Positions 8,338-20,114 of a DNA stretch of 22,491 nt are shown piece by piece (position 1 is the stretch's first letter; every line of letters starts with the position of its first letter). This stretch comes from a virus: IMG/VR virus record IMGVR_UViG_3300033145_000417, positions 1-22,491 of that record. The stretch is one strand, 5' to 3'. The notes beneath the pieces are model-generated. The model was not told the DNA's origin. It ran no database searches and was given only the letters and a program-made list of their open reading frames with translations. The position numbers were made by a program, and so were the translations under genes.

Positions 8338-9420
8338 ATGCCACTTCCGAGTGTAATCATTACGTTTCAGAGTAAGGCGATAGCAGCTATTGAACGTGGC
8401 GCCGTGGGGATCCTAGCGGTAGTCCTGAAGGATGCCAGTGTAGCAGATGTGACGGAATACAAATTACAAGATGTTGCCGATATTCCGGACACCTTGAGCG
8501 CAACTAACCAGGGATACCTGGAGCAGGCCTTTAAGGGTACACCGAAGGAGGTTAAAGCGGTTGTAATTCCGGACACCGCCGCTGATTACACCGATGCGCT
8601 TACTTATCTGGAGACAATTAAATGGAATATAGGTTGCATTCCAGGGATTGCGGACCTTGATGTCCCTACCATAGCCACCTGGGCTAAGGGGATGCGTGAT
8701 AATAAAGAACGTAAAATTATGATGGTACTTCCGGATGAAGCTGCAGACCATGAAGCAGTAATCAACTTTGTTGTTGAGGATGGCGCCGATGTAGCCGGCA
8801 ATGTGACTGTCGGGGAAGATACCTATACCGCCAGCCAGTATAGCGCCCGGATTGCCGGACTTATTGCTGGTTTGTCGCTTACCGTGGCACCGACCTTCCA
8901 GGTGCTTACTGAAGTGGACGACGTGCCGCATATAACCAAATCAGAAGCTGACACCAAAATTGACGCCGGCAAGTTTATTCTTTACCATGACGGGGAAAAG
9001 GTAAAGATTGCCCGGGGTGTTACCAGCCTGGTAACCACTACTGAAACCAAGGGCGCCGACTGGAAGAAGATTAAGATCGTCCGGATCTTGGACATGATTT
9101 ACCACGACGTAAAGAGTACTATTGAGGATGTTTACATTGGCAAGTACCAGAACAGCTACGAAAATAAGCTACTTCTAATTGCGGCCATTAACGCCTATTA
9201 TGAAACTTTGGAGCTGGCGCGCGTCCTTGACCCCGGGAAGAACAAGTGTGAAATTGACGTGGCGGCACAGAAGGCTTATCTACGGTCCATTGGGGAAGAT
9301 GTTGACAATATGACTGAGCAGGAGATCAAGGAAGCTAATACCCGGGACAAGGTGTTTCTGGTATCCACTGTGCGCCCGCTGGATGCGATCGAGGATGTCC
9401 AGCTGGTTGTTAACCTGTAG
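8338..9420 (+). CDS. xkdK: Contractile tail sheath protein
   Basis: This forms the outer tube that contracts during infection; its presence makes the phage a myovirus. The 360-aa product opens PLPSVIITFQSKAIAAIERGAVGILAVVL, typical of short PBSX-like sheaths. The C-terminal half carries the conserved core used for sheath polymerisation: VKIARGVTSLVT, KKIKIVRILDMIYHDVKSTIEDVYIGKYQNS, and a final VFLVSTVRPLDAIEDVQLVVNL strand. It is shorter than PBSX XkdK (about 460 aa from memory) and closer in size to sheaths of Clostridioides phages and diffocins. The start ATG 8338 follows AAGGAGGAATG (8323-8333), which overlaps the previous stop. Confidence 0.93.
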   Translation: MPLPSVIITFQSKAIAAIERGAVGILAVVLKDASVADVTEYKLQDVADIPDTLSATNQGYLEQAFKGTPKEVKAVVIPDTAADYTDALTYLETIKWNIGCIPGIADLDVPTIATWAKGMRDNKERKIMMVLPDEAADHEAVINFVVEDGADVAGNVTVGEDTYTASQYSARIAGLIAGLSLTVAPTFQVLTEVDDVPHITKSEADTKIDAGKFILYHDGEKVKIARGVTSLVTTTETKGADWKKIKIVRILDMIYHDVKSTIEDVYIGKYQNSYENKLLLIAAINAYYETLELARVLDPGKNKCEIDVAAQKAYLRSIGEDVDNMTEQEIKEANTRDKVFLVSTVRPLDAIEDVQLVVNL

Positions 9421-9432
9421 GGGGTGTGATGA

Positions 9433-9864
9433 TTGAACGGAGAACGTGTTATTAACGGCACTCATGGAGAGTTCTGGCTTGATGGCGACAAAGTAAGTGA
9501 ATGCTATGGCCTTGAAGCCAAGATTGAATTTAATAAAGAAGAAGTTGAAATCTGCGGTAAGCAGGGAACTGATACCAAGTTCATGGGGTATAAGGGCACC
9601 GGTACAGTAAAGCTGCATAAAGTCAACAGCCGGATGATGCTGAAACTTTCGGCAGAAATCAAGAGTGGTATTAACCCGCGTTTTCAAATTCTCAGCGCAT
9701 TGAAGGACCCGGCCGCCTACGGTGCAGAGCGTATCTTAATTAAGGACGCCGCTTTCGATGACCTTACCTTGGTTGGATGGGAAGCGAAGCAAAAAGGATC
9801 AGTTGAGGCCTCATTTACATTTACCGATTGGGATTTGCTTGACACCATTGAACCGAAAGAATAA
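9433..9864 (+). CDS. xkdM: Tail tube protein (XkdM-like)
   Basis: This is the inner tube of the contractile tail. The product of 143 aa shows the XkdM (DUF2001) pattern: RVINGTHGEFWLDGDKVSECYGLEAKIEFNKEEV at the N-terminus, then CGKQGTDTKFMGYKGTGTVKLHKVNSRMM, and a closing EASFTFTDWDLLDTIEPKE. The start is TTG 9433; a TGA lies directly upstream in frame at 9430, so this is the first possible start, and GGGGGTG (9419-9425) provides the ribosome site. The neighbours are sheath upstream and tail chaperone downstream, exactly the PBSX order. An 11-bp hairpin begins at its stop codon. Confidence 0.93.
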   Translation: MNGERVINGTHGEFWLDGDKVSECYGLEAKIEFNKEEVEICGKQGTDTKFMGYKGTGTVKLHKVNSRMMLKLSAEIKSGINPRFQILSALKDPAAYGAERILIKDAAFDDLTLVGWEAKQKGSVEASFTFTDWDLLDTIEPKE

Positions 9865-9887: not shown

Positions 9888-9906
9888 AAAATATTAGGAG
9901 GTAATT

Positions 9907-10302
9907 ATGAGTACACTGGATTTACTTCTAAAAATGGATGAAACAAAAATTAAAAAGCCTACAAAAGGGGTTGAAATAAGAAGACTTTCGGAGGTTGCCG
10001 GCGAGAAGGTTGTTTTTGTTTGTGAGGCTGTCACTCATAATAAAATGGCCGAGATACAGGAGATGGCTTTCGATATAAAGTCGCAGCAAATGGACATTCA
10101 GGAAATGCAAGTAATGACTGTTTTGGCTGGTGTTAAGGAGCCCAACTTTAAAAGCAAAGAGCTGCTGGAAAAGTTTCATGCGCCAACTCCTAAAGAATTG
10201 GTGCAAAAACTGTTATTGCCGGGAGAAATAACAAATCTTTATAACGTTATATCCGAACTTTCCGGATTTGGTTCTGATGCGGTGGCGGAAGTAAAAAACT
10301 AA
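9907..10302 (+). CDS. xkdN: Tail assembly chaperone, short form (XkdN-like)
   Basis: This non-structural chaperone binds the tape measure protein during tail assembly. The 131-aa product (LDLLLKMDETKIKKPTKGVEI, then VFVCEAVTHNKMAEIQEMAFD and MQVMTVLAGVKEPNFKSKELLEKFHAPTPKELVQKLLLPGEI) matches the XkdN family. The ATG at 9907 follows TAGGAGGTAATT (9895-9906). The final codons read GTA AAA AAC TAA, placing an A AAA AAC slippery heptamer directly before the stop. A -1 slip therefore gives a 194-aa fusion (next entry). It sits between tube and tape measure, as in lambda G/GT and many other tails. Confidence 0.92.
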   Translation: MSTLDLLLKMDETKIKKPTKGVEIRRLSEVAGEKVVFVCEAVTHNKMAEIQEMAFDIKSQQMDIQEMQVMTVLAGVKEPNFKSKELLEKFHAPTPKELVQKLLLPGEITNLYNVISELSGFGSDAVAEVKN

Positions 10303-10369
10303 TTAAAACCGATGGCCTTGCAGAAATGTGTTACTATTATTGGTCAAGAAAAGGCATAAGGCCGTCGGT
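10293..10369 (+). promoter_or_regulatory. Programmed -1 ribosomal frameshift site
   Basis: Three elements line up. First, the heptamer A AAA AAC (10293-10299) is in the proper X XXY YYZ phase of the chaperone frame. Second, TAA (10300-10302) follows at once. Third, a stem starts 8 nt after the heptamer: ACCGATGGCCTT (10308-10319) pairs with AAGGCCGTCGGT (10358-10369) over 12 bp with a single U-G pair and a 38-nt loop. The -1 frame is open across the site and for 63 codons beyond. Spacing, heptamer and stem all fit known -1 frameshift signals; the efficiency cannot be read from sequence. Confidence 0.88.
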
Positions 10370-10490
10370 AATATATAACATGCCACCGGGCGAAAAGCGT
10401 TTTGTTCGGGGGTGTTATGAAATAGAGATTGAAGAAAAAGACAAGCTTATGAAAAAAGGCATCTCTTGTCCTTACTTTGCCGTTTTTTAG
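10299..10490 (+). CDS. Frameshift extension of tail assembly chaperone (GT-type)
   Basis: This 63-codon reading frame is open from 10299 to the TAG at 10488-10490 and is reached by a -1 shift from the chaperone gene. It has no good start of its own: the first ATG (10326) has no ribosome site. The translation runs LIKTDGLAEMCYYYWSRKGIRP, then SVIYNMPPGEKRFVRGCYEIEIEEKD, ending KKGISCPYFAVF. The W-S-R-K-G-I-R-P-S-V-I-Y-N-M pattern followed by GEK and an acidic helix resembles the short T-domain-like proteins annotated near tape measure genes, which in the lambda model bind the tape measure. The fusion of 131 + 63 residues should be the minor product. The gene ends 15 nt before the tape measure ATG. 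Confidence 0.85.
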   Translation, partial: LIKTDGLAEMCYYYWSRKGIRPSVIYNMPPGEKRFVRGCYEIEIEEKDKLMKKGISCPYFAVF

Positions 10491-10505: not shown

Positions 10506-12686
10506 ATGATATTAGGAGCATCGTTGAAGCTAAAAGACAATTACACCAATACAATGTTGAAAGCATATCAAGCTACAGAAAAAACCACCCAGTCCATACG
10601 TTCAGCTCAGGTTTTCACCGGTGAGCTTACAAAATCAACCAGTCAATTAAGCAGCCAAATGAGGCTGTACAAAGCAGAACTTAGAGCAACACTGGCCAGA
10701 ATAGATGACACAAAAAATTCAACCGAGGCTTTAAAAGCCAAGTCAGAATCCTACAGCAAGCAACTTGTTTTACAACGACAGATACTCAATTCACTGGCTG
10801 AGAAATATAAAAAAGTTGTAGAGGCTGAAGGCGAGAGCTCACAGCAGGCAATACGTCTGGCGACATCAATACAAAGAGCCCGGGCTGAAGAGGCAAGAAT
10901 CGAGAACCAGCTCAGAAGGACCAACGATGCTATTAAAGATCAGTCTAGCGCTTGGCGGCGGTTGAAAAACGATTATGATAAAGCGAAAGCTGATGCGGCA
11001 CCGAGTTCAAGGTTTGATGTTATGCGCGGTGCCGGTACTGCCGTAATGGGCGCTGGTGTGGCAATGTCTATAGGTCTAGGCGCTACAGTAAAAACTGCTG
11101 CAGACTTTGAAAGTGCCATGAGCAGGGTTGGTGCACTATCCGGGGCCACAGATACAGAGCTACAAAAAATGATGGATACCGCCCAGGAATTAGGCCGGAC
11201 AACGGCTTTTAGCGCGACCCAGGCCGCGGAAGGCATGCAATTCCTTAGCATGGCAGGATTTAAGACAAACGAAATCATTGCTGCTATGCCCGGTATGCTG
11301 GACATGGCGGCTGCTGCTCAAATAGATCTGGGACGCGCCGCTGATATTTCATCTAATATTCTCTCTGCTTTTGGACTACAGGCAAATGAAATGGGCCGGG
11401 TTGGCGATGTGTTGACTAAAGCTTTCACGTCTTCTAACGTTGACCTTGAAATGCTAGGGCTAACAATGAAATATGTTGGTCCCGTAGCAAAAGCAGCCGG
11501 TTTTAGTTTGGAGGAAATGTCTGCAGCGGCGGGGATACTGGGTAATGCCGGCATTCAGGGGGAGCAAGCAGGTACTACTTTAAGAGCAACAATTTTAAGG
11601 CTTGTTAAACCGCCCAAAATGGCTGCTGAAGCCCTTGATAAATTAGGTGTAAAAATAAATGATTCAAATGGGAAAATGCTTCCCATGGCAGATATTCTGG
11701 AGCAAATCCAAAAAGGCATGAAGGGCATGACTGACGCCCAAAAGACTGCACTAGCGGGACAGATAGCAGGCACCGAAGCAGCAAGCGGTTTTCTTGCACT
11801 GTTAGATGCTGGGCCAGCCAGTTTAAGGAAATTTACTGGTGAACTTGAAAACGCCGGCGGCACTGCTAAAAAGATTGCCGACAAACAATTAGATAATCTA
11901 AACGGTAGTCTGACTATGCTAAAATCTGCAACCGAAGGTGCGGCAATATCAATAGGTGTAACGCTTTCTCCTTATATAAGGAAAGCAGCCGGGTTTTTTA
12001 ATCGTTTGGTTAATAGTTTTAATAACCTTTCTCCTGAAATGAAAAAGGCTATTGCCATAACTGCAGCATTAACCGCAGGGTTTATGCTCTTGGGGGGTCC
12101 GTTGCTTTTATTTATAGGATTTCTTCCCAGTATTGCAGCTGGGCTTGGGATGATTGGTATTAGTGCAGGAACCGCAGCCATCGCACTTGGCGCTATTCCC
12201 TTGATTATTGCCGCGGTGGTTACAGCTGGCGTGCTTTTATATAAAAACTGGGACAAAGTTAAAAGCGCAGCCGGCAACCTATGGGAGGGCATTAAAAACG
12301 CTTTTAAGATGGGAGTTAATTTTGTCATAGGCTTATTAAATGAGTTGATTGACAAAATTAATTTAATACCGGGAATAAATATAGACAAGATACCAAAATT
12401 AAGTATAACCAACACATCAACAACTTACAGCCCGATGGCGCATGGCCACGCTGCCGGCCTGCCATATGTGCCTTATGATAATTATCCGGCCTTGCTGCAC
12501 AGAGGGGAGCGGATACTTACAGCGGCGGAAAACCGCCAGTATAGCGGCGAGCGGCCGAGTGTAACCATCATGATACCCAAACTTGCGGACCAGATTAACG
12601 CCAGTGACCCGGCTGACGTGGATAGGTTGTTAGACCGCCTGGAGGAACGCATACTGCAAACCGCCCTCAATATGGGTACCGCGTAG
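10506..12686 (+). CDS. Tail tape measure protein (TP901 family)
   Basis: This protein sets tail length and is injected or ejected with DNA. Residues 1-165 are long charged helices (likely coiled coil). About 200-470 form the TP901 core, with the landmarks AADFESAMSRVGALSGATDTEL, FSATQAAEGMQFLSMAGF and LGNAGIQGEQAGTTLRA. Residues 513-578 hold two to three hydrophobic segments that could span the host membrane during entry. The C-terminus has the common PYDNYPALLHRGERILTAAE motif. At 726 aa it is short; at roughly 0.15 nm per residue the tail would be near 110 nm (inference). The start ATG 10506 follows GGGGTGG (10493-10499), 15 nt after the chaperone extension. Confidence 0.93.
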   Translation: MILGASLKLKDNYTNTMLKAYQATEKTTQSIRSAQVFTGELTKSTSQLSSQMRLYKAELRATLARIDDTKNSTEALKAKSESYSKQLVLQRQILNSLAEKYKKVVEAEGESSQQAIRLATSIQRARAEEARIENQLRRTNDAIKDQSSAWRRLKNDYDKAKADAAPSSRFDVMRGAGTAVMGAGVAMSIGLGATVKTAADFESAMSRVGALSGATDTELQKMMDTAQELGRTTAFSATQAAEGMQFLSMAGFKTNEIIAAMPGMLDMAAAAQIDLGRAADISSNILSAFGLQANEMGRVGDVLTKAFTSSNVDLEMLGLTMKYVGPVAKAAGFSLEEMSAAAGILGNAGIQGEQAGTTLRATILRLVKPPKMAAEALDKLGVKINDSNGKMLPMADILEQIQKGMKGMTDAQKTALAGQIAGTEAASGFLALLDAGPASLRKFTGELENAGGTAKKIADKQLDNLNGSLTMLKSATEGAAISIGVTLSPYIRKAAGFFNRLVNSFNNLSPEMKKAIAITAALTAGFMLLGGPLLLFIGFLPSIAAGLGMIGISAGTAAIALGAIPLIIAAVVTAGVLLYKNWDKVKSAAGNLWEGIKNAFKMGVNFVIGLLNELIDKINLIPGINIDKIPKLSITNTSTTYSPMAHGHAAGLPYVPYDNYPALLHRGERILTAAENRQYSGERPSVTIMIPKLADQINASDPADVDRLLDRLEERILQTALNMGTA

Positions 12687-19424: not shown

Positions 19425-20114
19425 ATGACAGATAATCTGAAAGAAAAAATACGAGAAACTCTTGATCTTGCTCTATCAGGAGGAGTAGAAACTGGGGCTG
19501 TTGCTTTAAGCCAGGCCTTATCTGATGTCTTAATTGGACAGGTAGTGCCAGGTATAACAACTGCATTTATGTCCTATAAACAAAAAAGAACGGAAAAAAT
19601 GGTTATGGCTGCAATTGCTGACATCAGTGGTCGCCTAAATGCACTTGAAGAAAAGCTGAGTAAGTTATCAAGTGAAGACTTGTTATTTATCAAAGAGTCA
19701 TTTCTTCCTGTTCTTCTAGATGTCATTGCAGATGAGCAGCAAGAAGAGAAAATATCATTATTGGTTAACGGTTTTCAGACTGTTATAGAATACCAGCTAA
19801 CTGATTTGGATATAATAACTCTTTATTACGATATAATAAGGGAATTACGGGTTCTTGATTTGAAAACCCTCATGTGGTTTGCTGGTAAATCGGATGTCGA
19901 AGCTTATGTTGAAACGTCAATTAGCCGTGATGACGTGCATAATTCAAGTATCAATCATATCGTTAAGAAATTAGAAAGGCTGCACCTTATAGGTATTCCA
20001 AAGTTATGGGGTGAGATTGAGGGGAAGGAATTTACCATTAGTAGGGAAAGAGGCGAGCTAACGGTACTCGGAGAAAGGTTTATTGATTTCTTCAGGATGA
20101 AAGGAGGACTCTAA
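19425..20114 (+). CDS. Unknown 229-aa protein, Abi-alpha-like layout
   Basis: I do not recognise this with certainty. Residues 1-55 include a hydrophobic, Gly/Ala-rich stretch (ALSDVLIGQVVPGITTAF) that could sit at a membrane. A coiled coil follows (about 68-85), then a helical middle with the QQEEKISLLVNGFQ pattern (104-117), and a C-terminal winged-helix-like end (INHIVKKLERLHLIG, then GELTVLGERFIDFF). This order resembles DUF4393/Abi-alpha proteins, some linked to abortive infection, but the match is by eye. The gene is AT-rich (about 30% GC over 19741-19800). ATG 19425 follows GGGAGGGGG. It overlaps the next gene by 1 nt, so the two form an operon. Confidence 0.6.
   Translation: MTDNLKEKIRETLDLALSGGVETGAVALSQALSDVLIGQVVPGITTAFMSYKQKRTEKMVMAAIADISGRLNALEEKLSKLSSEDLLFIKESFLPVLLDVIADEQQEEKISLLVNGFQTVIEYQLTDLDIITLYYDIIRELRVLDLKTLMWFAGKSDVEAYVETSISRDDVHNSSINHIVKKLERLHLIGIPKLWGEIEGKEFTISRERGELTVLGERFIDFFRMKGGL

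Follow-up and report, generated by a model that had tools for sequence, protein, structure and literature searches.

A predicted programmed −1 frameshift in the XkdN-like tail assembly chaperone of a contractile-tailed phage and its relatives

Does the tail assembly chaperone gene of this phage encode one protein or two? The virus record analysed here, which we call the window, is 22,491 bases long and carries a contractile-tail module of sheath, tail tube, chaperone and tape measure. A sequence-only reading of it had proposed a −1 frameshift signal at the 3′ end of the chaperone gene, on the G/GT logic of phage lambda. Levin is said to have described the programmed −1 frameshift of lambda gpG/gpGT in 1993; the lambda slip site is G GGA AAG. 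The features of the window that bear on the question are the following.

8338-9420, plus strand: tail sheath of a contractile tail (PF04984/PF17482; phrog_1480, E 1.6e-123)
9433-9864, plus strand: tail tube protein (PF09393, E 8e-49)
9907-10302, plus strand: tail assembly chaperone, zero-frame product ('G-like'), 131 aa (PF08890 Phage_TAC_5; phrog_389 XkdN-like; PDB 3klu YqbN)
10293-10299, plus strand: slippery heptamer A AAA AAC (direct reading; AAAAAAC in 74 of 79 distinct relatives)
10300-10302, plus strand: zero-frame stop TAA, directly 3′ of the heptamer (direct reading; stop position conserved)
10300-10307, plus strand: 8-nt spacer from heptamer to stem (direct reading)
10308-10319, plus strand: 5′ arm of the putative stimulatory stem (direct reading, fold, compensatory changes)
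10358-10369, plus strand: 3′ arm of the same stem (direct reading, fold, compensatory changes)
10299-10490, plus strand: −1 frame extension ('T-like'), 63 codons from CTA to TTT plus TAG at 10488-10490 (phrog_2722, E 2.9e-11; protein-level constraint)
10506-12686, plus strand: tape measure protein (PF10145, E 2e-58; phrog_1533, E 3.5e-137)

The zero-frame product, whose gene is preceded by the Shine-Dalgarno sequence AGGAGG at 9896-9901, is a clear member of Phage_TAC_5, the XkdN-like family of PBSX/skin type (PF08890, E 1.3e-28; 100 bits against a gathering cut-off of 27, over nearly the full length). It is also matched by the 'XkdN-like' phrog_389 (E 2.9e-34), and its nearest solved relative is YqbN (PDB 3klu, E 9e-6). 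NCBIfam gave no match above cut-off for either the zero-frame product or the extension, and nothing in Rfam matched within the window. Elsewhere in the record, between the tail and lysis genes, a 229-aa protein (19425-20114) matches phrog_11520 (E 5e-20) and has no Pfam match above cut-off.

Direct reading of the codons agrees with the earlier account of the slip site. The chaperone gene ends GTA (10291-10293) AAA AAC TAA (10300-10302), which places A AAA AAC in X XXY YYZ phase with the stop following at once. The −1 frame is open from CTA at 10299 to TAG at 10488-10490, adding 63 residues past the slip to the 131 of the zero frame, for a fusion of 194 aa, again as had been read from the sequence alone.

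To see how widely this arrangement is kept, we compared 79 distinct loci, the window included, drawn from viral contigs, genomes and named phages. In 77 of them the gene carries a slippery heptamer in phase, and past it the −1 frame stays open (74 with AAAAAAC and three with AAAAAAA), so that the conservation which the sequence-only reading had proposed as a check is borne out. The background frequency of in-phase AAAAAAC, taken from the bodies of related chaperone genes, is 0.00036 per codon (0.036%), against which its presence at the 3′ end of 74 of the 79 is more than chance. The zero-frame stop lies 0 or 3 nt past the heptamer in 76 of the 77, and the extension has a median length of 59 codons, the sole short one (L052, 18 codons) being cut by a contig end. 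Individual loci depart from this layout. In the chaperone of Bacillus phage BalMu-1 (L072, 1079-1528) the heptamer lies 18 nt upstream of the zero-frame stop, a distance that hardly any relative shares, and one locus (L058, G233 C128) carries the variant A AAA AAG in phase, with a zero frame 17 codons longer, so that the two frames overlap.

The extension itself evolves as a protein. Between relatives whose extensions share 70% identity or more, the −1 frame shows 607, 397 and 1745 differences at codon positions 1, 2 and 3, and with this bias to position 3 the frame bears the mark of a translated one; the downstream frame, whose conservation was another of the checks proposed, is kept open in homologues and under protein-level constraint. 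Pfam has no match for the extension. The PHROG family that matches it, phrog_2722 (E 2.9e-11), is annotated 'unknown function' and catalogued as a protein of its own. We searched both families in 398 genomes, namely those of the phylum of a Clostridium relative, in a search centred on the Clostridium genome that holds locus L001. Phage_TAC_5 was found in 51 genomes and phrog_2722 in 18, and comparison of coordinates placed phrog_2722 30-42 nt behind a Phage_TAC_5 match in 18 of 18 cases. From this position phrog_2722 appears to be the C-terminal half of the chaperone, reached by frameshifting, and that is the best reading of the family. No family or structure match supplies a function for the extension; by analogy, it may serve in binding the tail tube.

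Downstream of the heptamer, ACCGATGGCCTT (10308-10319) pairs with AAGGCCGTCGGT (10358-10369) to give 12 bp with one U-G pair (10313-10364), beginning 8 nt past the heptamer and enclosing a loop of 38 nt, exactly as the stem had been described before. In the minimum-energy fold (−29.1 kcal/mol; z −2.94) the outer 11 pairs persist and a 2-nt bulge leads on to three further pairs; none of 200 dinucleotide shuffles folded as well. The best stem begins 3-10 nt downstream in 68 of 77 relatives, with a mode of 8. When the peptide is recoded with random synonymous codons, the RNA past the heptamer loses stability: the native sequences have a mean z of −2.34 over the 77 relatives, with z below −1 in 67 and above +1 in none. 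Stem strength is uneven, and in about 10 relatives the RNA folds no better than the recoded sequence.

Compensatory changes in the stem, which had been named as a further check, were sought in the 31 relatives that could be aligned without gaps, by shuffling synonymous codons within columns. The stem register of the window is paired in 84% of cases against 75% in the shuffles (z 8.5, from a control that only partly removes the shared ancestry of the relatives), while the twelve neighbouring registers, from six below to six above, gave z of −1.0 to 1.8. Pairs that join two wobble positions vary on both sides; at offsets 10/67, for example, A-U, G-C, C-G, G-U, U-G and U-A are all seen, with one failure in 31. 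An excess of pairing over synonymous shuffles, present in one register only, indicates that base pairing in the RNA is selected over and above the needs of the peptide. The suggestion that the loop might form a pseudoknot found no support, as the longest helix between the loop and downstream sequence has the length that synonymous shuffles also reach (4.68 against 4.61).

Taken as comparative evidence for a programmed −1 frameshift, these data are very strong, and we hold with high confidence that the phage makes a short and a long tail chaperone by −1 ribosomal frameshifting at AAAAAAC. Most ribosomes would terminate at TAA (10300-10302) and release the 131-aa chaperone. A minority would be paused by the stem at 10308-10369 and slip one base back on A AAA AAC, the tRNAs re-pairing from AAA/AAC to AAA/AAA. 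These ribosomes would then resume at CTA (10299-10301) and produce the 194-aa fusion with its 63-aa C-terminal domain. What the sequences show are the elements themselves, their conservation, the protein-level constraint on the extension and the covariation of the stem; slippage, its rate and a division of labour between the two products are inferred from them.

Three other accounts of the locus deserve consideration. The extension could be a small gene in its own right, with a start codon within the stem-loop, and the heptamer incidental. The sequence-only reading had held that the extension has no start of its own, and this needs amending: an ATG at 10326, in the −1 frame, opens a 54-aa ORF, and the second piece is annotated as its own CDS in PBP180 (ORF21), a Lachnospiraceae phage and Javan336. 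Direct reading nevertheless finds no Shine-Dalgarno sequence before this ATG, and the conserved L-I-x-T-D-G follows immediately on the slip, ahead of every possible start. Moreover, whole subfamilies (e.g. L045 and L040) have no early ATG in the extension, and the phase of the heptamer is kept almost universally; we regard an independent gene as very improbable. That the two frames really form one gene, split by a sequencing error or as a pseudogene, draws on the record of Streptococcus phage EJ-1, in which one additional A ahead of the run joins the two frames. This account is refuted by the conservation of the two-frame layout, which recurs with the same heptamer in dozens of independent sequences, from isolate genomes and metagenome contigs to phage records, and we give it next to no credence.

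The remaining account keeps both products and changes the machinery, the fusion message arising from RNA polymerase slippage on the A-run rather than from ribosomal slippage. The slip site is indeed an A-run, and a sister clade carries A9 with little or no stem, A9 being a known efficient polymerase slippage site (PMC5009743). Polymerase slippage is expected at uninterrupted runs of about 9 or more A or T, but the run in the window is only A6, with a C after it, and A9 is confined to the sister clade; ribosomal slippage is characterised by just such a strict X XXY YYZ phase, spacing and covarying stem. We therefore consider polymerase slippage in the window extremely unlikely, and ribosomal frameshifting remains the preferred reading.

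The sister clade is of interest in its own right. In this clade of the chaperone AAA AAA AAA TAG replaces A6C. Scans for the extension in the clade yielded 13 members with A9T, together with A9C, A8G and A8T variants. Together these make up one branch (support 100/99), which is nested in the family and has the window's branch, of 34, as its sister; the loci with an A9 run before TAG or TAA are L080, L083/L131, L110, L113, L118-L121, L124-L126, L133 and L135. Recoding leaves their downstream RNA on average as stable as before (mean z −0.18, where 74 A6C members have −2.58; Mann-Whitney p 9e-6), a comparison in which the members of the branch are not independent, because it has a single origin. 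As A9 is an efficient site of RNA polymerase slippage in bacteria (PMC5009743), a switch of mechanism in the sister branch is plausible, although A AAA AAA is slippery for ribosomes too. We tentatively suggest, at somewhat less than even likelihood, that the A9 branch swapped the ribosomal cassette of A6C and selected stem for polymerase slippage, with the same two-product outcome.

In the A8T variant (L086, about 1445-1487, and L112) the extension lies in the +1 frame; L086 is the out-of-phase exception among the 79 loci. A +1 extension is beyond the reach of −1 ribosomal slippage, and polymerase loss of one A could reach it. The variant could reflect slippage of the polymerase, an error in sequencing a homopolymer, or a copy that is broken, and the case may be one of a single genome or of sequencing error.

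How does the locus compare with known systems? Frameshifted tail chaperones are a textbook case, described for lambda and many dsDNA phages (PMC5009743, which cites Xu, Hendrix and Duda, 2004). In this type a stimulatory structure downstream of the slip site is frequent without being universal. The lambda logic invoked by the sequence-only reading fits the gene order, in which the chaperone stands between tail tube and tape measure, and also fits the chaperone family, Phage_TAC_5. As for lambda gpG/gpGT, the −1 slip would occur near the 3′ end of the gene and give short and long products with a common N-terminus. Unlike in lambda, A AAA AAC directly precedes the stop and is followed 8 nt downstream by a covarying stem, the phage is contractile-tailed, and the chaperone belongs to another sequence family. 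Judged by its sequence, the predicted frameshift is a case of the known lambda G/GT type of tail chaperone frameshift, in contractile-tailed Firmicute phages. What the present analysis adds is the rule across Phage_TAC_5, the role of phrog_2722, the evidence from stem covariation and the A9 branch. In the open-access literature we found no relevant paper that links XkdN or Phage_TAC to frameshifting.

Phage phiCD508 shows the same gene order. Its gp57 (an XkdN-like chaperone) and gp58 (small, of unknown function) precede the tape measure gp59, and its virions contain neither gp57 nor gp58 (PMC11948020), as would be expected for assembly factors. By its number and position, gp58 would correspond to the extension.

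Annotation has generally followed the zero frame. Neither the Phage_TAC_5 family models nor most public records go past the zero-frame stop, and they lack the −1 extension. Specifically, the zero frame alone is annotated in CD1801, BboS-125, BalMu-1, Javan308, MissE2, MismyG, phiOH2, jlb1, phiCD27, AQ113 and PVJ1, and the second piece is listed as a separate hypothetical protein in PBP180, the Lachnospiraceae phage (IMGVR 15430980) and Javan336. Among 12 further named phage records (L098-L109), the heptamer A AAA AAC is retained in 11, which have extensions 54-65 codons long. In the EJ-1 record (L098, AJ609634.1, 895-1491) the extra A, seen against the close relatives MismyG and Javan336, gives a single 198-aa ORF55; in this old record it may be a sequencing error or a natural fusion. 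Two C. difficile phages, phiC2 (L100) and phiCDKH02 (L109), have no tape measure annotated within about 0.9 kb downstream of the chaperone, which in phiCDKH02 is labelled 'portal protein'; their tail modules are either mislabelled or rearranged.

For Firmicute phages and prophages with contractile tails, the frameshift would be close to a general rule among XkdN-like chaperones. It would give a role to phrog_2722, a family catalogued as unknown, and would mean that a second chaperone product is missing from most public records. If the suggested switch in the sister clade is true, nature would have run an experiment in the A9 branch, exchanging a ribosomal recoding signal for a polymerase one.
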